From: a candidate division TA06 bacterium
GTDB lineage: Bacteria > Edwardsbacteria > AC1 > EtOH8
DNA: 64,000 bases
Assembly (NCBI GenBank): GCA_016235665.1
Contig: JACRJI010000008.1
Location: 62,001-126,000 of the forward strand
Reading direction: 5' to 3'
Positions 15,446 through 26,311 of the stretch are shown one piece after another (position 1 is the stretch's first letter; every line of letters starts with the position of its first letter). The notes under the pieces are model-generated. The model had not been told where the DNA came from. It saw only the letters and a program-made list of their open reading frames with translations, and searched no databases. A program made the translations under genes and the position numbers.

Positions 15446-16299
15446 TTGCTCTGATCTTCTTTCTTTTTGGCCTGCTGTTCGGTTCTTTTGCCAATGTCTG
15501 CATCTGGCGGATCCCCCGCAAGGAGGAAGTGGTGGTAAAACCCTCCCATTGTCCCGATTGCGGTGCCGCCATCAAATGGTATCAGAACATTCCGGTTGCC
15601 AGTTACCTGCTTTTGCGGGGCCGGTGCAGTGATTGCCATAAAACTATCTCCCTGCAGTATCCGATGGCGGAGCTGGCGGGAGGAGTCCTTTTTGCCGCCG
15701 CTTACCTGAAATTCGGTTTGGACTGGCGCCTGGCCGGGTATCTGCCTTTTTTGTGGGCCCTGCTGGTCATTTCGGTCATAGACCTCAGACATTATATAAT
15801 ACCTGATCTGCTGAGCCTTCCAGGGATGGGTCTGGGTCTGGTTTTTGGACTGGCAGGGACTTTTATTCCTAACTTTAATCTTTCTGTTTTCGGGAATAAC
15901 GATCCTTTTGCTGTTTGGGCCTGGCTGGACAGTATGATGGGGATGCTGATGGGAGGAGGATTGATCTGGCTTTCGGCCTGGGGCGGGGAAAAGATATTCA
16001 AGCAGGAGGCCATGGGAGGCGGGGACATAAAACTGGCGGCAATGATCGGAGCTTTTGTGGGCTGGCAGGCAGTACTGATGGTCTTGTTCCTATCATTCCT
16101 GCTTGGCACCCTGGCAGGTGTTCCCCTGATGTTGCTGGATAAGCTGAAGAAAACAACTGAAATGTTTGAAGGAGTTTCCAAGGATCAGCCGGCCAAAGCC
16201 ATGATTCCTTTCGGTCCATTCTTGGCAATGGGAGCAGTGATCACAATGCTGGCTGGAAAAACCATCTGGGGATTTTATGCGGCTTTGCTGGTTAGATAG
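15439..16299 (+). CDS. Prepilin peptidase / N-methyltransferase (PilD family)
   Basis: An inner-membrane aspartic protease that cleaves and N-methylates type IV pilins and pseudopilins. The N-terminal FGSFANVCIWRIPRKE is family-typical. A four-cysteine zinc domain (CPDCG and CSDCH) precedes the aspartates: first site in VISVIDLRHYIIPD, second in the GxGD-type motif GGGDIKLAAMIGAFVG. About seven membrane segments are visible. The ATG at 15439 overlaps the end of rimO by 7 nt; a TTG at 15430 in the same frame is an alternative. Its likely client in this window is the pseudopilin at 60.2 kb. Confidence 0.93.
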   Translation: MLIALIFFLFGLLFGSFANVCIWRIPRKEEVVVKPSHCPDCGAAIKWYQNIPVASYLLLRGRCSDCHKTISLQYPMAELAGGVLFAAAYLKFGLDWRLAGYLPFLWALLVISVIDLRHYIIPDLLSLPGMGLGLVFGLAGTFIPNFNLSVFGNNDPFAVWAWLDSMMGMLMGGGLIWLSAWGGEKIFKQEAMGGGDIKLAAMIGAFVGWQAVLMVLFLSFLLGTLAGVPLMLLDKLKKTTEMFEGVSKDQPAKAMIPFGPFLAMGAVITMLAGKTIWGFYAALLVR

Positions 16300-16337: not shown

Positions 16338-16366
16338 TTGACAAACCGCCTGATTTCGGTTATAGT
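16338..16366 (+). promoter_or_regulatory. Sigma70-type promoter of the PorU-PorV locus
   Basis: TTGACA (16338-16343), a 17-nt spacer, then TATAGT (16361-16366): a perfect -35 box and a -10 box with five of six matches. Transcription would begin near 16373 and leave a leader of about 200 nt before the C25 peptidase gene. Confidence 0.8.
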
Positions 16367-16409
16367 TATTAAGTTAACAAAAGAAGCCACAAGGAGATAT
16401 TTGTATTAG

Positions 16410-16487
16410 AGCCGTTCAACGTCAGGGATTAAACAGGGAATTGAGAATATTTAGAATAGCCCTTTTTAGCGTACCCTGATATCGGCT
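16410..16487 (+). ncRNA. Candidate aptamer-like leader RNA (attenuator/riboswitch)
   Basis: This leader segment can fold into one long interrupted helix. Helix 1 is AGCCG (16410-16414) with CGGCT (16483-16487). Helix 2 is TCAGGG (16422-16427) with CCCTGA (16474-16479). Helix 3 is GGG/CCC (16436-16438 with 16460-16462) extended by ATT/AAT. Two internal loops (ATTAAACA against TTTTTAGCGTA; TTCAACG against TAT) resemble ligand-binding loops. Its 3' arm is also the 5' arm of the antiterminator (16477-16487). No known riboswitch class is firmly recognised. Confidence 0.6.
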
Positions 16488-16536
16488 TGGTATTATCTCT
16501 GTTGGCAATGGATTTTGCCATATTTAGCCGGTATCA
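16477..16536 (+). promoter_or_regulatory. Antiterminator pairing
   Basis: Positions 16477-16487 (TGATATCGGCT) can pair over 11 bp, with one G-U, with 16526-16536 (AGCCGGTATCA). This takes up the left arm of the terminator. A second copy of AGCCG (16526) thus competes with the first copy (16410) for the same CGGCT. The loop contains a small hairpin, TGGCAA/TTGCCA (16503-16520). Confidence 0.65.
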
Positions 16537-16559
16537 ATCAATTGATACCGGTTTTTTTT
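16528..16559 (+). terminator. Intrinsic terminator just before the C25 peptidase gene
   Basis: A perfect 10-bp stem, CCGGTATCAA (16528-16537) with TTGATACCGG (16542-16551), a 4-nt loop and eight T residues. It ends 12 nt before the ATG at 16572, so it acts on this gene's own leader rather than on an upstream gene alone. Confidence 0.88.
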
Positions 16560-16571
16560 ATTTTATTTTTT

Positions 16572-19500
16572 ATGATCGAACAAATAAAAATAATCATCCT
16601 TGTCATTGGGCTCATGTCCACCACGGCCGTGGCCCAGATAAAACTTTTAAAGTCGGATGATCGAAACGCTTTGATCTCATGTCAGTTCGCTCCTGCGAAC
16701 TTGGTTCAGAATGACCAGAGACAAACCATTCCATCAATCAAAGGCTGTCAAACACAAGGGGAACCGGGACAACCCATAAGTTTGTATCAGCAGATAATGG
16801 TGGGTGTTCCCCCGAATGCCCGGGTGGAAGTTAAAATGATCTCCGGAGAATATGAAGAATATTCCGGCATCGATCTGGCTCCGGTCCCGTATTTAGAGGC
16901 AATGGGAAAGGACGATCTGGGTGGGTATGTTTATCGCAAGAACGAGAAAGAATATCAAGCCAAGGGATTATCACCGCAAACGAATGTAACACTTCATTCG
17001 CTTGAAATGCTGCGGCGCCACCAAGTTGCATTGATAAAAGTGCATCCTCTTCAATATGATCCAAGCTCAAAAATATTAAGGGTTTATAGCAGGATGCAAG
17101 TACTGGTTACCTGGGATATTACGGGTTATCCCGGAGTTGACATAGATGATGATGTATATGGACCGATCTTGGTCGATCAGATAATCAATTATCAGCAGTC
17201 AAAAAACTGGCTGACGGAATCATCCAAAGCCGGAACCAAGGCCGAAGATTCTTTTGCCGCCACCCCGGTCTGGTATAAATTATCGGTAGTTAACCAGGGA
17301 ATATACCGGCTGGATTACAACTACCTGAAACGTAACGGAATCAATCCTGATATCATAGATCCCCGGACTATAAAGATATTCAACGGTGGATCGCGAGCCT
17401 TTTCAAAATCATACAGCCCGCCAACGGATACGTTAAAACAGATGAATATTTTGGTTAAAGGGGAGCAGGACGGCAAATTTGATGACGGAGACCAGATATT
17501 CTTTTTTGGGCAAAGCTTGGCCGGGTGGGATAAGAACAGCTCCCTGCTTAATGGCCATTACTACAACCCTTATGGCGACACCAACAGCTACTGGCTTTGC
17601 TGGGGCGGTGCTGCCGGCTTAAGGATGACCGAGCGTGACTGTCGTCCAATATCCTCGAATTACCTAACTCCGCAAAGTTTTACCGATACTTTGCATTTTG
17701 AACAGGATGTCTTTAATCCATTCAACTCCGGAGAGCTATGGTATTGGTTAAACATGAAGCGGTTACGGGTGGAAGAATACCGGAACTATAGTCTGCCTTT
17801 TGATTTATCTTATGCTATGCCGGGAACTTTTAAGGTAAAGTTAAACTTCCAGGCTGGAACTGACACTTCCAATATTCACCATCATGTAAACTGGGGGATT
17901 AACGGTATAATCTATAACCAAAAGGTATGGACAGGCAGACCATTTTCTGGATCTTATTCCGATTCTTTAACCCTGCCAGGACTCCCTGCCGCTTCCAATG
18001 TTCTGAATCTGCAATTGGATCGAGACTTTGCAGATACCTTGGATATAGTGTATTTGAACTGGTTTGAAGTTTATTACCGGCGGAGTTATGTGGCTTTAAA
18101 CTATAACTTAAAATTCCGGGCCGATTCACTAATTGGACAACCTTACCGGTTCAACTTGACCGGTTTTGCCAGCGATAGTATGTTGATCCTTGATATCAGC
18201 AACCCCGAAAAGCCGATTAGTATATCAAGCGACAATATCTATCAATCATATTCTGAATTCGAAGATTTCTGGAATAACGAGAGACTTTACTGGGCCGCCT
18301 CCGGTCCCGGATGGAAGAGGCCGGCAAAAATTGAGCCTTATGCGTCTCAGGGCCTAAGGCAAAATTATTTAAATGTTAATTATCTGGTGATAACCGCAGA
18401 TGAGTTCTGGTCCCAGGCCCGGGCTTTACTGGCGATGCATTCCAGCGAGGCCAGACTGCAGCCTATGGCGGCGGTAAAACTTTCCTGGATATACAATGAA
18501 TTCAGCTTTGGCTTAAAAGATCCCTCGGCCATACGCAAATTCCTTGATTATATTTACCTGAACTCTGAGCAGACCAGTCCCCAAAGATGCCTTTTATTCG
18601 GTGATGGCAGTTACGATTACCGGGAGATAGACAAAACCTGGGGGCGGCATAATTTTATTCCCACTCATCAGGAAGATGGATTAAGGCTGGAGTTGGGTGA
18701 ATATCTATTTGATTCATACGACGATTGGTATGTACGTTTAAATAATGCAAACCTTCCACAGCTTATATTGGCCAGGATACCTGCTAAAAATGCCGATGAA
18801 GCCTGGACGGTGTTAGCCAAATCCTCCCGTTATAAAGCAGCTACCGGTGATCTTCAGTGGCGAAATCGTGCGATATTAATGGCCGATGATGAATTTAAAG
18901 CCGGGGGAGTATATGCCATCGATGAAGAGGATCATACTGCTTATTCTGAATATCTGGCAAAAAATGTTTTGCCGAGCAGTTACGATATAACAAAAGTTTA
19001 TGGGGCAATGCGGGAATATCCCAGGGGTTCGGATGGATTCAAACCTGATGCTCGCAATGCCCTGATCGGTTATTGGAACCAGGGAGCCGCAATCATAAAC
19101 TTCTTTGGACACGGTGCCTATTGGGTCTGGGGACATGAGCATTATTTTATGGATACCGATGTGTCTAACTTATCCAACGGTGATAAACTTCCTTTTGTAA
19201 TTATGGGTACCTGTGGAACGAGCAGGTTTGATATGGGCAGTCGCGAGTCAATCGGTACATCCCTGGTTGTTAAGAGTGGCGGGGGAGCCATTGCTACTGT
19301 GGGCGCTACCCGGGGGACATATTCTGACGGGAATTTTAACCTATCCAGGGGAATTTATGACAATATATTTACAGCTTCATATGATCTGGGACAAGCATTT
19401 TATAGCAGCAAAATTTCCACTGGTGGCAATTCACTTTACTCTCTAATGGGAGATCCGGCCCTGTGCTTGTCAAAACCAAACGGAGTTTGTAGTCTGGCCT

Positions 19501-20516
19501 TAAGCGATGATACCCTTAAAAGCCGGGGGCGTTATTCGGTAAATGGAATAATTAGCGGGTTGCCAGGATCTTTTAACGGTCAGGCATTGCTTACTATTTA
19601 TGATGCCCCCCGGACTGATTGTTCAGTACTTACACCAACGTTGACATTCACGGTACCAGGCAAACCAATAATCAGGTTTGGATCTGCTGTCCAAGACGAT
19701 AGCTTATATGCCAGTTTTATTCTGCCTAATATGACTTCGATTCGAGCGGAAAGCTTGGTGGTTGATAGCGCCCGTGTGAGTGTTTATGCATGGAACACAA
19801 GCTTTGATGCCAGTGGCGTTTTGGGCGGTAATCTTTGGCTGGGAGGGGCGGTGGCTCCGGATACTTCCGGCAACGCTAAACCTGTCATAGAAGTGTGGAA
19901 CAATGGCGTCAAATTGACCGATGGGGATATAGTGGGTAAATCATCACAATTGACTGTTAAAGCAAGCGATGACAGGGGGCTTAATATTATTTCCTTTTTA
20001 ACCAGCCAAACAGATCAGTTGCAGCTGGTTGTTGACGATAAGCTTCCCGTGTATTGTCTTGGTGCAGATTTTGTTTTTGACAATGGCAGTACCGTTTCAG
20101 GGCAGGCTGTTTGGCCCGTTGCGACCAATGCCGGTCTACACAAATTCAAATTCTCAGTTTACGATTTGGCATCAAATAAAGGTGTTTTGGAAATTAAACT
20201 GAATGTCCTATCTTCATCCGGTGAAAATAAGATAGACGGTGTTTATAATTATCCCAACCCCTTCAAGCAAAACACTTGTTTCACTTTTAATTTGTATCAA
20301 GAAGGCGATGTAACCATAAATATATATACCATCGCCGGCAGGATGATAAAAACCCTGGTTCAAACCGGCCGAAGCTTCGGTTATAATCAAATATACTGGG
20401 ACGGACGCGATGCCGATGGCGGTTCCTTGGCCAATGGCGTTTATTTCTATAAAATATCGGTCCGGGGGGCAGCCGGAGAGGCCAGCAAAATCGGTAAATT
20501 AGTAGTAATGAAATAA
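16572..20516 (+). CDS. PorU-like C25 (gingipain-family) peptidase with T9SS sorting domain
   Basis: A 1314-residue exported cysteine peptidase. A signal peptide (IIILVIGLMSTTAVAQ) is followed by a C25 propeptide-like region (QIMVGVPPNARVEVKM), beta domains, and the catalytic domain with His847 in NFFGHGAYWVWG and Cys881 in MGTCGTSRFD. The last 85 residues are a FlgD-like Por sorting domain (YNYPNPFKQNTCFTFNL to GKLVVMK). PorU is the T9SS sortase that removes this domain from cargo and attaches cargo to the surface; the PorV-like gene directly downstream favours that role over a simple gingipain. The ATG at 16572 is used because a longer frame (TTG at 16515) would be read through the terminator hairpin. 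No Shine-Dalgarno is visible. Confidence 0.85.
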   Translation: MIEQIKIIILVIGLMSTTAVAQIKLLKSDDRNALISCQFAPANLVQNDQRQTIPSIKGCQTQGEPGQPISLYQQIMVGVPPNARVEVKMISGEYEEYSGIDLAPVPYLEAMGKDDLGGYVYRKNEKEYQAKGLSPQTNVTLHSLEMLRRHQVALIKVHPLQYDPSSKILRVYSRMQVLVTWDITGYPGVDIDDDVYGPILVDQIINYQQSKNWLTESSKAGTKAEDSFAATPVWYKLSVVNQGIYRLDYNYLKRNGINPDIIDPRTIKIFNGGSRAFSKSYSPPTDTLKQMNILVKGEQDGKFDDGDQIFFFGQSLAGWDKNSSLLNGHYYNPYGDTNSYWLCWGGAAGLRMTERDCRPISSNYLTPQSFTDTLHFEQDVFNPFNSGELWYWLNMKRLRVEEYRNYSLPFDLSYAMPGTFKVKLNFQAGTDTSNIHHHVNWGINGIIYNQKVWTGRPFSGSYSDSLTLPGLPAASNVLNLQLDRDFADTLDIVYLNWFEVYYRRSYVALNYNLKFRADSLIGQPYRFNLTGFASDSMLILDISNPEKPISISSDNIYQSYSEFEDFWNNERLYWAASGPGWKRPAKIEPYASQGLRQNYLNVNYLVITADEFWSQARALLAMHSSEARLQPMAAVKLSWIYNEFSFGLKDPSAIRKFLDYIYLNSEQTSPQRCLLFGDGSYDYREIDKTWGRHNFIPTHQEDGLRLELGEYLFDSYDDWYVRLNNANLPQLILARIPAKNADEAWTVLAKSSRYKAATGDLQWRNRAILMADDEFKAGGVYAIDEEDHTAYSEYLAKNVLPSSYDITKVYGAMREYPRGSDGFKPDARNALIGYWNQGAAIINFFGHGAYWVWGHEHYFMDTDVSNLSNGDKLPFVIMGTCGTSRFDMGSRESIGTSLVVKSGGGAIATVGATRGTYSDGNFNLSRGIYDNIFTASYDLGQAFYSSKISTGGNSLYSLMGDPALCLSKPNGVCSLALSDDTLKSRGRYSVNGIISGLPGSFNGQALLTIYDAPRTDCSVLTPTLTFTVPGKPIIRFGSAVQDDSLYASFILPNMTSIRAESLVVDSARVSVYAWNTSFDASGVLGGNLWLGGAVAPDTSGNAKPVIEVWNNGVKLTDGDIVGKSSQLTVKASDDRGLNIISFLTSQTDQLQLVVDDKLPVYCLGADFVFDNGSTVSGQAVWPVATNAGLHKFKFSVYDLASNKGVLEIKLNVLSSSGENKIDGVYNYPNPFKQNTCFTFNLYQEGDVTINIYTIAGRMIKTLVQTGRSFGYNQIYWDGRDADGGSLANGVYFYKISVRGAAGEASKIGKLVVMK

Positions 20517-20547: not shown

Positions 20548-23061
20548 ATGCATCCCACCAGAAACAGAATACTAATGTTGGCAGCGGTGATATTACTGTC
20601 GTTCACCTATGCCTGGGCCATATCAGAAGGAGGAGCCATATTTTTGATGATCCGGCCCGGCGCCCGTCCCAGCGGTATGGGCAGCGCCTTTTGCGCCATT
20701 GCCGACGATGCCACCGCTACCTATTATAATCCGGCGGGCCTGGCTTTTTTAAAAAGGAACGATCCTCTGCTGAATTACCAGGATATTAAGGATTGGAACA
20801 GGTTCTTGAATAGTTTCAAGGATTCACCGGAGGGCAGTGCTTTTGCCTGGGCTGATCTTAGTGATCCTGAAGGTATGATAATAACGCTTTCCGGCTTACC
20901 GCTGCTGTCTCAAGGCGATATTGCGGACTGGAACAAACTTTTGATCATGCTGGCTGATACCTCGGGCATGGTGAATAAAAATATTTTACCTCAGTTATCC
21001 GAAGATGCCAGAGCCATAATCTCAGGGCATCAGCCAGGCGATATTTTGGATAACCAAGCAAAATCAATTTTTATTTATGCTCTGAATAAAGCGATAAATA
21101 ATCAGGACACCTATAAGAAGTCTGGCTGTGGTGATGCCGCCATCCCGGAAGCAGCGTCACGCATCCTGGCCAAATACCGGATGATCCCGGACAGCTTGGG
21201 ATTTTTGGTCTCAAACATTTCAGACCCCCAGGGACTGGCCCAAAAGATCAAAGGTCGGGCCGATCCGGTTTCCCAGTATATTTACGGCAAGATGGCGGGA
21301 AAAGACAAGATCATTTTATCCCGGAAATATCAGGACAAGAATTCCGATAGCCTGAAGTCAATCTTAGCCGCTGCTTTAAACAATGTCTGCCGGCAGGCTG
21401 ATTTTTACAATGACAATAGATTTAAAAATGTAAAATTAAAGCCAGGGACTTTATCCTTATCCGGCAAAAAACTCAGCGGCGGGGCACTTTACTCCTGGAA
21501 TCAGGACCTGTTGCTTCAGGCTTATCCCAGTTTGTTACATATCCAAACTGCCGAACTTTCATTGGAAGATCTCCGGCTGCTTAACCGGAAAGCTTTGGAA
21601 TGTATGTTTGAAGGTGCCATTATGTCTTATCCCAGCATAAATATAAATAATACCCTGGCAGGTTATCTCAGAGAGAAAACTGGCGAGACCATTGACCAGA
21701 TTTTTCTACAATACAAAGGCGAAGGCCCCATAGCCGAAGCAGAGCAAAGACTTTGGCTGGATGAGATCAACAAAAATGTCCTGACTGACACTCAACTGGT
21801 AAACCAGCCGGCACCGGGGGGGCGAAAATCCGGCCAATACCTGCAAAACCTGATTAAACGCGGACCAACAAAAAATCCAGCCGTTTTAAACCGGGCCCTG
21901 CTGGCCGGGTATTACCCGGAATGGTTTGGGGCCGCTAAAAATGAATCCAATCCTTTCCAGTACATCAAAAGTTTGATGGAGCCGAGCGCCCTGGCCGAAT
22001 TGGACAACCATTTTAGTGGCCAGGGAGTTTCCAGTGAGGGCCGGCAGTTATTATTGGCCGGCCTGAATCTGATTATATCCAGACCAGATTTTTACCAGAA
22101 GGAACAGTGGGCAGATTATCCGGTACCAGCCGAAGCCCAGGAACTAGTGCTGGATCTATTGGCAGAAGGCACCGGGAATTTGAACCTGAACGATCTGCGC
22201 AAACTGAACCGGACTATGCTGGAAGCATTATACCCTTCTGAATTGGTAAAGATCGGCCAGGATAAAAGCTATGCCTCACTTATGCATTCGCCCTGGCTTT
22301 CCGAGATCTGGTCCGATGTTGGCGACATGTACTATGAATACATCTCTTATGTTCAGCCCTACAAGGATTGGGGAGTATTCGGAGGCAGTGTCATCTTTAT
22401 ATCCGAGGGAACCAGCCAGCATACCGGAAGTTTAGGGGAAGATTATGGCGAGTTCTCCAGCTACGAATTCTCCCCGATACTTTCATACGGCAATGAGATT
22501 TTTAAAGACCTGGCCGGCGGAGTTAACCTGAAACTGATCCATTCCCATCTGGCGCCCTTCGGGGCGGAAGGAAGCCAGGGCAAGGGCGTGGCCACCACCT
22601 GGGCTTTGGATTTTGGCCTGCTGTACCATGGGCCTTTTAAGGGATTGTCCTTTGGCAGCAATCTTCAGAACATCGGGCCTAAGCTGGTCTATATAGATGC
22701 CGAACAGGCCGACCCGCTTTCACGGAACATCCGGGTCGGCACCGCCTATAAGATACTGGACGGCCGCTGGGCCAAGCTTACCGCGGCGTATGACATTACC
22801 AAGATGCTGGTGGTTAATGACCGTCCCTGGAAGGAAGAACTTAAGGAGTCAGTCCAGCATGCCGGCATAGAATACCAGTACACAGGAGCGGCAGAACTGG
22901 GACTGCGCGCCGGGTATGTGTATGACGAGGCAGGCAAGATCAAAGGCTCAACCTATGGCTTTGGGGTGGGCTACAAGAAAATCCAGTTTGATTTCGGAAT
23001 GGAGCCCGGAGGCGAATTGCAGAAATACAATAAAAAATTCTCACTTTCTGTCGAGTTATAA
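20548..23061 (+). CDS. PorV-like outer-membrane barrel with a large helical insert
   Basis: An 837-residue protein. The signal peptide and residues 25-70 (GGAIFLMIRPGARPSGMGSA, DDATATYYNPAGLAFL) and the part from about residue 590 (YYEYISYVQPYKDWGVFGGS) to the end match the PorV/UPF0164 barrel family, which carries T9SS cargo to the PorU sortase. Between them about 515 residues are inserted (DNA 20758-22310). The insert is helical and polar and contains an internal duplication: DFY...LSLEDLRLLNRKALE near 280-350 and DFY...LNLNDLRKLNRTMLE near 510-560. Ordinary PorV is about 350-400 residues. AGGAGAG precedes the ATG. The insert has no recognisable fold. Confidence 0.8.
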   Translation: MHPTRNRILMLAAVILLSFTYAWAISEGGAIFLMIRPGARPSGMGSAFCAIADDATATYYNPAGLAFLKRNDPLLNYQDIKDWNRFLNSFKDSPEGSAFAWADLSDPEGMIITLSGLPLLSQGDIADWNKLLIMLADTSGMVNKNILPQLSEDARAIISGHQPGDILDNQAKSIFIYALNKAINNQDTYKKSGCGDAAIPEAASRILAKYRMIPDSLGFLVSNISDPQGLAQKIKGRADPVSQYIYGKMAGKDKIILSRKYQDKNSDSLKSILAAALNNVCRQADFYNDNRFKNVKLKPGTLSLSGKKLSGGALYSWNQDLLLQAYPSLLHIQTAELSLEDLRLLNRKALECMFEGAIMSYPSININNTLAGYLREKTGETIDQIFLQYKGEGPIAEAEQRLWLDEINKNVLTDTQLVNQPAPGGRKSGQYLQNLIKRGPTKNPAVLNRALLAGYYPEWFGAAKNESNPFQYIKSLMEPSALAELDNHFSGQGVSSEGRQLLLAGLNLIISRPDFYQKEQWADYPVPAEAQELVLDLLAEGTGNLNLNDLRKLNRTMLEALYPSELVKIGQDKSYASLMHSPWLSEIWSDVGDMYYEYISYVQPYKDWGVFGGSVIFISEGTSQHTGSLGEDYGEFSSYEFSPILSYGNEIFKDLAGGVNLKLIHSHLAPFGAEGSQGKGVATTWALDFGLLYHGPFKGLSFGSNLQNIGPKLVYIDAEQADPLSRNIRVGTAYKILDGRWAKLTAAYDITKMLVVNDRPWKEELKESVQHAGIEYQYTGAAELGLRAGYVYDEAGKIKGSTYGFGVGYKKIQFDFGMEPGGELQKYNKKFSLSVEL

Positions 23062-23062
23062 T

Positions 23063-26000
23063 ATGACGGTTGCACTTTTTAAACGCCGCCGGCTGGAACT
23101 ATCGTGTCTATTGATCCTTACGGCATTAACCTCTGCGGGTGCCGGAGACCTGCAGGATATAAAACAGCAATGGAAAACCTCCCGGCCGATTTTGGAAAAG
23201 ATCAAGCAGCAGCCCCGCCAGTACCGGGATGCCGTGTCAAAAATGAACCTGTTGGGCCGGGGTCGGGCATTTGCCAAATTAAAAGGGCTGAACAAACATG
23301 CGGTTCAGGACACCATTCGCGTTCTGGCAATTAAAGCCCAGTTCCAGCTGGATGATGACGCCAACACCGCCGGTAACGGGCATTTCGATTACACCGGCAA
23401 CGGTCAGCCGATGTACATCGGCGGCAACTACCTTAACGGACATAACCTGGATTATGAGCCGCCACATGACAGCTTGTACATCCATAATCAGATGCTGGCC
23501 TTGCGCAACTATTACCTGGCTGTATCCGATGGACAATTGTACATAGAGTTTGAACAATGGCCAAAAGCCGATACATCTGCGTACATCTTACCCCACCAAA
23601 TGTCATTTTACAGTGATTTTTACAACGGGGGAGCGAATTGGGGAGCGGGGTTGTATGTCCTGCTGAGGGATGCATTGGAAGCAGCCGGCAGCGACAGTTG
23701 CAGTTTTAGCACCGGAAGCGGGTCAGCCAAAGTCCCCAAAGCAGTGATGATATTCCATGCAGGATCTTGCTGGCAGACCGATCCGTACGGTGCAGACATC
23801 CCGTCAGTGTTCTTGCAGATGGATAGTTCCAGTCCCATCATTGTCAAGGCCGGGGCTGATACCATCTACGAAGGAATCATTGACGCCGAGACACAAAGCC
23901 AGGACGGGATGGTGCTCGGTTCGCAGGGCGAAATAGCTCACGAATTCGGTCATCAGTTGGGCCTGCCGGATCTCTATGATTATTCCATGTACTCGGTGGG
24001 CTTGGGAGAATGGGAATTGATGTCCTGGGGTTCGTGGAACATGAACGCCTATGTGCCGCCGCATCTTTCGGCCTGGTGCAAGGTATTTTTGGGGTGGTCT
24101 GAGCCTAAGACCTTGGAGCCAGGCGCGGACGCTACGGTTGCCTTTGACTGGGTGGCCAAGGACCCGGATGCCATCGTGAAAATACCCATTAATTCCCACG
24201 AGTATTATCTGATCGAGAACCGGCGGGCCTGGGTGGATCCCAACAGCGTCATCTCCGATTCTGCCTCGGCCGATTCCAACGGAGCCAGGGTATGGCGTAA
24301 CGGAGTCTTGATTAAAGTAAACGACTACGACATGTCCCTGCCGTTTGAACTGGACGCCGGCGGATTATTGGTATATCATGTGGACGAAAATCTCATCAGC
24401 CAAAGATGGTATGACAACAGCCTGGAGACGGGGGACATTAAGGCCATCTATCTGCTGGAGGCTGACCATGTTCAGGATCTGCAGCGCTGGGGCGGATCTC
24501 CTTATTCCACCTATGCCAGCCCCTACGACGCATATTATGCCGGCAACAACGACCGGCTGGATGACGGCAGCGACCCGGCCACGATAGCCAATGACGGTTC
24601 GTATACCCATATTTCCGTATCCGGTATTACTGTCCCATCCGTGAGCATGAGCGCCAGGGTCAAGGTCGGATGGAGCCTGCCGGGTTTTCCTTATGATCTG
24701 GGGCAGACGGTGGACTGGAACAGCGCCAATTATGCGGTCTTGGGTGATACCACGGTTTTAATCATACCCGGCAACGATGGCAGGGTATATGCCGTGATGT
24801 CCAACGGCCAGGGTTTGTTCAATAGAGATACAATATTGGTATTGTTGGGTAGCGATACTGTCAAAGTAAGAGCTGAATATGCCAGAGTGTCAGGCAATAT
24901 TTATTCTTCTCCTGCAATAGGAGACGTCAATAAAGACGGCCGGCCCGAAGTATTTGTGTCCTCGGCTGATTCGTTAACCCAGGGTTCTGTTTGGGGTTTT
25001 AGCTTTGACTATCATAGTGAAACGGAAATTACACCAAACGCCAATTCATATACCTTAAATAGAGCGGATCTGCTTGATAGCTTTCCCGTTTTTACCAAGG
25101 GCCCGATATTTTCATCGCCCACTTTGGCAGATATTGACGGTGATGATACTTTGGAAATAATGGTTGCGTGTGATGACAAAAAACTTTATGCCTGGCGCTT
25201 TAACGGAAGCCTTGTGTCAGGTTATCCAAAAGATCTGGCAATGGAGACCAGGGCCACCCCTTCGGCAGCCGAGTTGTATGCCAATTCTCCTGGTTCTGAG
25301 GTAATGATCCTTTCAGGGGATAGCCGGGTTTTCGCTCTGGCTGACAGCGGAAAAGATTTGTCTGGTTTCCCTGCATTGTCGCCATGGGTGGATTGGGCGT
25401 CGGCTTCCACCGCTGTTGGTGACATCAACCGGGACGGAAACCCCGAGATAGTGGCCTGTCCTAAAAATCAAATAACTGTTTTGGATAAACTGGGCCGTAC
25501 CGTTTCCGGCTGGCCGGTATCCCACGACCAGACTGCAATAACCACTCCGGCCCTGGGCGATTTAGACGGAGACGGTTATCTGGAAATAGTGGTAGCCATC
25601 GGAGTCAAGCTTTACGCCTATAATTATAACGGGACCCTGATCTCTGGTTTCCCAAAAGTGATATCCGAATCCCTGAATGTCCAATCTTCTCCGGTGTTGG
25701 CCGATGTGAACAACGACGATCTGCAGGAGATAGTCATCGGCTCGCCAGATGGAAGGATATATGCCTTCAAAGGCAACGGTACCGATGCCCCAGGATTTCC
25801 TTTGACAGTTGGCGGCAAAGTACTTTCCACCCCGCTGCTGACAGACCTTGACGGAGACAGTTCTGATATCGAACTGGCCGTGGGTTGCGATGACGGCAAT
25901 TTGTATGTCTGGAGCATCGGGTCGCCTGTAACTGTAACCCGCCTTCATTGGCCTATGTTCTGCGGCAATCAGGCCCATACCGGGTTTATTGACTGGGACC

Positions 26001-26311
26001 CGGCTCTGCGCGCTTTGTCTGCCAAGTCAGGGGAACTGATAAAGAACGCCTACGTTTATCCCAGCCCGGCCCGGGGCGACCACGCAAAGATCAGGTTTTT
26101 CCTGGAAAATAACGCGGAAGTAGATGTCAAGATATTCAATCTGGCCGGAGAGCTGGTCCGCCAGTACAGCCAGCCGGGGCAGGCCATGACCGAAAACGAG
26201 GTTGTCTGGAGCCTGGAGCAAATAGCGTCCGGCGTTTACATCATCAGGGTGGAGGCCAATGACGGAACGAATGCAATAGTAAAAACCTGCAAAGCGGCGG
26301 TGATAAAATGA
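23063..26311 (+). CDS. Secreted M6-family metalloprotease with FG-GAP repeats and T9SS sorting domain
   Basis: A 1082-residue exported zinc protease of the immune-inhibitor-A (M6) type. The signal peptide is followed by a propeptide, then the catalytic motif GEIAHEFGHQLGLPDLYD (His293, Glu294, His297) and the Met-turn-like WELMSWGSWN. Residues 600-970 carry six or more FG-GAP/VCBS-type calcium-binding repeats (GDVNKDGRPE, ADIDGDDTLE, GDINRDGNPE, GDLDGDGYLE, ADVNNDDLQE). The C-terminal 85 residues are a Por sorting domain (VYPSPARGDHAKIRFF to CKAAVIK). The ATG at 23063 is 1 nt after the PorV-like stop; a longer frame only re-reads that gene. Likely a cargo of the PorU/PorV system encoded upstream. 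Confidence 0.9.
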   Translation: MTVALFKRRRLELSCLLILTALTSAGAGDLQDIKQQWKTSRPILEKIKQQPRQYRDAVSKMNLLGRGRAFAKLKGLNKHAVQDTIRVLAIKAQFQLDDDANTAGNGHFDYTGNGQPMYIGGNYLNGHNLDYEPPHDSLYIHNQMLALRNYYLAVSDGQLYIEFEQWPKADTSAYILPHQMSFYSDFYNGGANWGAGLYVLLRDALEAAGSDSCSFSTGSGSAKVPKAVMIFHAGSCWQTDPYGADIPSVFLQMDSSSPIIVKAGADTIYEGIIDAETQSQDGMVLGSQGEIAHEFGHQLGLPDLYDYSMYSVGLGEWELMSWGSWNMNAYVPPHLSAWCKVFLGWSEPKTLEPGADATVAFDWVAKDPDAIVKIPINSHEYYLIENRRAWVDPNSVISDSASADSNGARVWRNGVLIKVNDYDMSLPFELDAGGLLVYHVDENLISQRWYDNSLETGDIKAIYLLEADHVQDLQRWGGSPYSTYASPYDAYYAGNNDRLDDGSDPATIANDGSYTHISVSGITVPSVSMSARVKVGWSLPGFPYDLGQTVDWNSANYAVLGDTTVLIIPGNDGRVYAVMSNGQGLFNRDTILVLLGSDTVKVRAEYARVSGNIYSSPAIGDVNKDGRPEVFVSSADSLTQGSVWGFSFDYHSETEITPNANSYTLNRADLLDSFPVFTKGPIFSSPTLADIDGDDTLEIMVACDDKKLYAWRFNGSLVSGYPKDLAMETRATPSAAELYANSPGSEVMILSGDSRVFALADSGKDLSGFPALSPWVDWASASTAVGDINRDGNPEIVACPKNQITVLDKLGRTVSGWPVSHDQTAITTPALGDLDGDGYLEIVVAIGVKLYAYNYNGTLISGFPKVISESLNVQSSPVLADVNNDDLQEIVIGSPDGRIYAFKGNGTDAPGFPLTVGGKVLSTPLLTDLDGDSSDIELAVGCDDGNLYVWSIGSPVTVTRLHWPMFCGNQAHTGFIDWDPALRALSAKSGELIKNAYVYPSPARGDHAKIRFFLENNAEVDVKIFNLAGELVRQYSQPGQAMTENEVVWSLEQIASGVYIIRVEANDGTNAIVKTCKAAVIK

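Follow-up and report, generated by a model that had tools for sequence, protein, structure and literature searches.

Upstream of porU in a genome of Candidatus Edwardsbacteria, a promoter is followed by a leader that can fold in two mutually exclusive ways and by an intrinsic terminator. The question raised by this locus is whether the leader controls porU and, if so, as what kind of RNA. Most work on type IX secretion concerns Bacteroidia, for which regulation has been described at transcription initiation, by two-component systems and ECF sigma factors. We know of no earlier cis-regulatory RNA for the type IX secretion system. The window, meaning the whole stretch of DNA analysed, comprises 64,000 nt of contig JACRJI010000008.1 (GCA_016235665.1, positions 62,001-126,000), and coordinates without a locus name are window-based. 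The family of the window's genome, Candidatus Edwardsbacteria, was represented by ten genomes from four genera.

The porU locus and its leader

The type IX secretion sortase PorU, with a peptidase C25 domain (Pfam PF01364) and a sorting tail, is encoded at 16572-20516 on the forward strand and scored 583.5 bits against the NCBIfam equivalog NF033707 (cut-off 420). The gene for a PorV/PorQ family outer-membrane protein (20548-23061, forward strand; NF033709, 194 bits, cut-off 90) begins 31 nt past the end of porU, and the two are probably cotranscribed. By the equivalog model the gene behind the leader is a bona fide porU. The PorV-type gene encodes 837 amino acids, of which only residues 571-835 or so make up the PorV/PorQ domain, and overlaps by about 146 nt the next open reading frame (22916-26311), in which a Peptidase_M6 match is combined with FG-GAP repeats and a sorting tail of the T9SS type. 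Upstream of the leader, on the same strand, pilD ends at 16299. A second, more distant C25 peptidase gene is found elsewhere in the genome (G000:C13:22971-25790, locus L039), close behind another open reading frame; no leader of the porU kind was seen in front of it.

The promoter is of sigma-70 type (TTGACA-17-TATAGT, 16338-16366, forward strand) and matches the consensus at 11 of 12 positions, as had been claimed. The transcribed leader, with its start placed from the -10 box, extends over 16373-16571 on the forward strand. The intrinsic terminator (16526-16559, forward strand, -15.5 kcal/mol) has a stem of 12 bp (16526-16537/16542-16553) and a T8 run (16552-16559) that stops 12 nt short of the porU ATG at 16572. 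The leader is about 150 nt long, and the coordinates given earlier, with a terminator 12 nt before the gene, were right. Folding of the leader, which the initial annotation had called for, gave -58.5 kcal/mol, more stable than chance (z -4.3; none of 200 shuffles as stable), and the window sequence without the terminator still gave z -3.4. The leader is present in one copy in the genome according to BLAST.

The minimum free energy (MFE) structure is a rod. Strand A1 (GAGCCG, 16409-16414, forward strand), which supplies the 5' strand of the rod's lower helix and competes with the antiterminator, pairs with 16483-16488 in the MFE structure and in the consensus of three genomes. Strand A2 (GTCAGGG, 16421-16427, forward strand), the 5' side of the upper helix, pairs with 16474-16480 in the MFE structure, and its GUCRG is common to all four genera. 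A small hairpin (GGCAA...TTGCC, 16504-16519, forward strand; MFE and three-genome consensus) occupies the interval between rod and terminator.

Alternative pairings and conservation in Edwardsbacteria

The strand shared by the two folds is strand B (TGATATCGGCT, 16477-16487, forward strand), which can pair with strand A or with the 5' arm of the terminator, strand C. The closing helix proposed earlier, AGCCG (16410-16414) with CGGCT (16483-16487), is present in the MFE structure. The second proposed pairing, of TGATATCGGCT with AGCCGGTATCA (16526-16536), extends over 11 nt with one G-U pair and also stands, being above chance in the window (p 0.003-0.005 compared with dinucleotide shuffles).

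The leader was found directly upstream of porU in all ten family genomes, i.e. the window's genome, two congeneric genomes and seven located through PorU orthologues. The initial annotation had named a lack of covariation among relatives as a ground for refutation; judged by conservation, the relatives did not refute it. In the two congeneric genomes the leader is 87-88% identical, with long fully identical runs in both rod strands, and the loop sequence is nearly unchanged in the three nearest genomes. The promoter elements TTGACAAA...TATAGTTA (form TTGACAAA-N-TATAGT) are common to all ten genomes. In each the leader measures about 145-165 nt, and porU is closely preceded by a hairpin GCCGG...CCGG. 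Where pilD is located on another contig, as in G003 and G006, the leader is still found before porU, which speaks for a function in cis. The combination of promoter and intrinsic terminator ahead of the gene, as in an attenuator, is thus present. The shape of the terminator is kept throughout the family, with the U tract absent in G003 and displaced in G006, so that termination may be weak in these two. Without the terminator the leader is no more stable than shuffles in G003 (z -0.4), G006 (z -1.3) and G004 (z 0.0).

The best complement of the terminator 5' arm within the leader is the homologous strand B site in ten of the ten genomes, with p 0.002-0.14 per genome against dinucleotide shuffles and a Fisher p of 1.4e-4 over four genera (one genome per genus); because the genomes are related, these statistics are support and not proof. 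The corresponding B/C pairs are GATACTGGCT/AGCCGGTGTC in G003, CTGGCTTTT/AAAAGCCGG in genus g4 and GCACTGGC/GCCGGTGT in G004. Between genera the pairs are kept mostly through G-U. Genus g4 has three further A-U pairs in which both sides differ from the window, and the A's of these pairs are also paired within the terminator itself. Few distinct sequences are available within Edwardsbacteria, and the changes are therefore mostly one-sided and the covariation limited. The comparison of homologous leaders suggested in the initial annotation thus supported conservation of the two pairings, with covariation inside Edwardsbacteria remaining limited.

The terminator state is the MFE state in all genomes compared, 3-26 kcal/mol below the antiterminator state. 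The greater stability of the terminated fold, together with the order of synthesis, suggests termination by default.

porU leaders in other phyla

A scan of GTDB genomes with a PorU alignment gave 79 loci (KSB1, Ignavibacteria, Calditrichota, Gemmatimonadota, Cloacimonadota and others). Of the 65 usable loci, which include two Edwardsbacteria with a terminator, 18 had an intrinsic terminator near the porU start; among control genes of these loci the figure was 30 of 404. A second sample was drawn from a single class in which 141 of 149 genomes had PorU. The sequence upstream of porU was taken from 80 further genomes, and about 40 of the 80 loci had such a terminator.

Leaders of the same build were found in Ignavibacteria, KSB1 and one Gemmatimonadota genome. 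They share a helix in which UUYGUUAAAGGUUU is paired with AAACCUUURACRAA (usual core UUYGUUAAAGG/CCUUURACRAA), and a terminator opening RCCGAA follows a few to about 36 nt downstream. The helix model R1 matched about a quarter of the second sample at E below 0.05. Covariation, counted on alignment A8 with unedited arms joined by a neutral AAAA, was evident: changes on both sides were found in 10 of 18 pairs among 25 distinct sequences, 86% of the cells were paired, falling to 57-58% when the partner was slid by one column, and 41 cells were double-changed compared with 15.3 in shuffles. Compensated variants include GATAAAGG/CCTTTATC, GGTAAAGG/CCTTTACT and GTTAGAAG/CTTTTAAC. Since the 3' arms had been picked for pairing and the sequences by their 5' motif, an independent check was made from the terminators alone. 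The best upstream inverted repeat was better than shuffles (p <= 0.05) in 26 of 47 leaders and held the helix motif in 24 of the 47.

The leaders are largely restricted to porU. Of the 43 porU loci with a terminator, 22 had one opening with [AG]CCGA[AG], but only five of 651 other terminator-like matches in the loci opened in this way. Of these five, one (L153) is a true porU terminator and two (L108 and L111) precede a second, tandem porU. Each tandem copy has its own leader; that of the second porU (L108:11005-11160 and L111:7733-7900) combines a compensated helix, GTTCGTTAGAAG/CTTTTAGCGAAC, with a terminator of the form RCCGAATG. In one genome porU occurs at two separate loci, both of them preceded by a leader. 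A genome-wide scan with R1 was too insensitive (150 candidates scored per genome), and the exact helix pattern was used instead. It was found in five of 396 genomes of one phylum, four times at porU and once in an apparent repeat; reversing the pattern as a control gave single matches in two genomes. One weak model match, a P1-like helix GGTTAGAGGTTTG/CAAACCTCTAACC just past another gene and before an unrelated open reading frame (L165:1500-1580; G098:C108:7227-7307), is possibly due to chance.

The build of the leader varies. Several Ignavibacteria have helix and terminator fused in one hairpin AAACCATTTATTAAAG...CTTTAATAAATGGTTTTTT. In Kryptonia and relatives (L091:6600-6800; L209, L212, L214, L217 and L218) the leader forms a giant hairpin with a U tract at its end, whose 3' arm contains the first in-frame ATG of porU, so that termination and translation start could both be controlled. 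In the clade of L107, L231, L232, L250 and L252 an unrelated helix CTATATAGATTTCT/AGGAATCTATATAG occupies the same place before a ACCGAGTG terminator. A local hairpin ACATTCTGTC...GACCGAATG lies upstream of the terminator in L097, L211, L215, L108 and L111 and overlaps its 5' arm, possibly as a second kind of antiterminator (p about 0.2 in individual leaders).

The pairing with the terminator 5' arm was undetected outside Edwardsbacteria, with 3 of 49 leaders at p < 0.05 and a median p of 0.42 (duplex energy compared with shuffles), and a general antiterminator of this kind in all phyla is not supported. The conserved alternative pairing that would exclude the terminator is thus found in ten of ten Edwardsbacteria genomes and undetected in the other phyla. 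As judged from these comparisons, the two-state strand switch described in the initial annotation is supported only in Edwardsbacteria. R1, the covariance model of the P1 helix of Ignavibacteria and KSB1, gave no convincing match to the Edwardsbacteria leaders with filters off. The two kinds of leader share only architecture and terminator style, and common descent is not proven since R1 fails to recognise the former. Architecture is more conserved than sequence among these leaders, which fits Edwardsbacteria as a divergent case. The leaders of other phyla appear related to the Edwardsbacteria leader in architecture and perhaps in origin.

Mode of action and relation to known systems

The sequence comparisons indicate that the leader is a real, conserved, porU-specific and attenuator-like element. 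It probably acts in cis as a transcription attenuator of porU, terminating by default and, in Edwardsbacteria, using a strand switch. RNA polymerase would start at the strong sigma-70 promoter, and the first half of the leader would fold into the long hairpin. By default polymerase would stop at the intrinsic terminator just ahead of the porU ATG. In Edwardsbacteria, strand B, the 3' strand of the hairpin, could leave A and pair with C, the 5' arm of the terminator, and thereby prevent the terminator. A factor able to hold strand A, or to open it, while the leader is being transcribed would then switch porU-porV on. Such a factor would most likely act in trans (a protein, an RNA or a ribosome) and less likely be a metabolite. 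A more tentative proposal, with the odds somewhat against it, is that one old family of attenuator RNAs controls porU in Ignavibacteria and allied Bacteroidota, KSB1, Gemmatimonadota and Edwardsbacteria. Such a family would respond to a signal, e.g. cell-envelope or secretion-system state, sensed by way of a dedicated RNA-binding factor or a ligand of a new class.

A true riboswitch would be a special case of the attenuator, in which the long hairpin is a small-molecule aptamer that controls termination. The logic is that of transcriptional riboswitches, the geometry is default-off and the loop is almost constant in the three nearest genomes. The wider set is less favourable: the helix loop ranges from about 17 to over 100 nt across phyla and varies in sequence, no conserved pocket was seen in it, and no conserved unpaired core was found outside the window's genus. 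Such variability of the loop speaks against a conserved aptamer for a small molecule, at least as far as can be read from the alignments, and makes an attenuator worked by a protein, an RNA or a ribosome at least as likely. A search of Rfam with the window leader and eight relatives at gathering thresholds matched no known class, in agreement with the earlier statement that no riboswitch class could be firmly recognised, and the Rfam classes, c-di-GMP riboswitches included, were rejected as the identity of the leader. The resemblance to c-di-GMP-II that had been suspected is limited to a loose GGG-ATTAAACA-GGG and did not hold up, as the Infernal covariance models of c-di-GMP-II (RF01786) and c-di-GMP-I (RF01051) gave no match at E up to 5. 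A riboswitch in the strict sense, with a small-molecule aptamer, seems unlikely. A ribosome-driven attenuator is less likely still. In this reading strand A would be opened by a ribosome bound either to the SD-like AAGGAG (16392-16397) or, in other phyla, to the AAAGG of the helix. The AAGGAG does precede a possible frame of 26 codons with an AUU start, ending at 16479, GGAG is found in the window's genus (except G001) and in genus g4, and the AAAGG in other phyla is SD-like and pairs with CCUUU. However, the window leader has no AUG frame, indels disrupt the AUU frame in G001 and G002, and no counterpart was found in G003, G004 and G006. A conserved short open reading frame over the switching strand is thus lacking, and the leader-peptide form was rejected.

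The leader could also be a stand-alone terminated small RNA, with porU expressed by read-through only and no regulated switching. It has its own promoter, its own terminator and a strong fold, and thermodynamics strongly favour the terminated form. A trans-acting RNA would, however, not need linkage to porU, and this linkage survives changes of neighbouring genes, recurs across phyla and is repeated at each tandem or second porU copy; the constant choice of strand B as best complement of the terminator arm in Edwardsbacteria is likewise unaccounted for. A small RNA of this kind is therefore improbable, slightly more so than a riboswitch. That the terminator merely ends pilD transcription and insulates porU is very improbable. 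It would suit the position of pilD, upstream on the same strand, but the promoter is located between pilD and the terminator, and RCCGAA-type terminators are nearly confined to porU. A pilD terminator was rejected because the leader is kept in G003 and G006, where pilD is not upstream.

The proposed attenuator of porU would be, to our knowledge, the first cis-regulatory RNA of type IX secretion. The porU leaders of several phyla suggest, from their sequences, an undescribed RNA switch for this system. They occur in lineages that have hardly any cultured models or none at all, and the conserved helix and terminator offer a testable handle on the signal that sets the levels of PorU and PorV.

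The leader shares with riboswitches and other terminator-antiterminator attenuators a promoter, a structured leader, a terminator before the gene and a strand with two exclusive folds. Those systems differ in having a known aptamer, leader peptide or binding protein, none of which is known for the porU leader. As a rod-like RNA of about 185 nt with its own promoter and terminator it resembles 6S RNA (RF00013); the true 6S RNA of this genome is located elsewhere (73.9 bits at G000:C14:51553-51736) and the leader was unmatched, so 6S RNA was rejected as its identity. Antitermination by LoaP/NusG paralogues is hairpin-dependent, and by analogy the conserved RNA hairpin upstream of the porU terminators could recruit an antiterminator. 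No link between a leader RNA and control of porU or the T9SS sortase was found in the literature searched. Among the genes listed for one promoter motif in Flavobacterium psychrophilum is porU, and the motif resembles ECF sigma control of T9SS genes (PMC9723704). The target gene is thus the same as for the ECF sigma type promoters of Bacteroidia (PMC9723704), but there an alternative sigma factor exerts the control, at the step of initiation, whereas the porU of Edwardsbacteria has a sigma-70 promoter and then a terminator.
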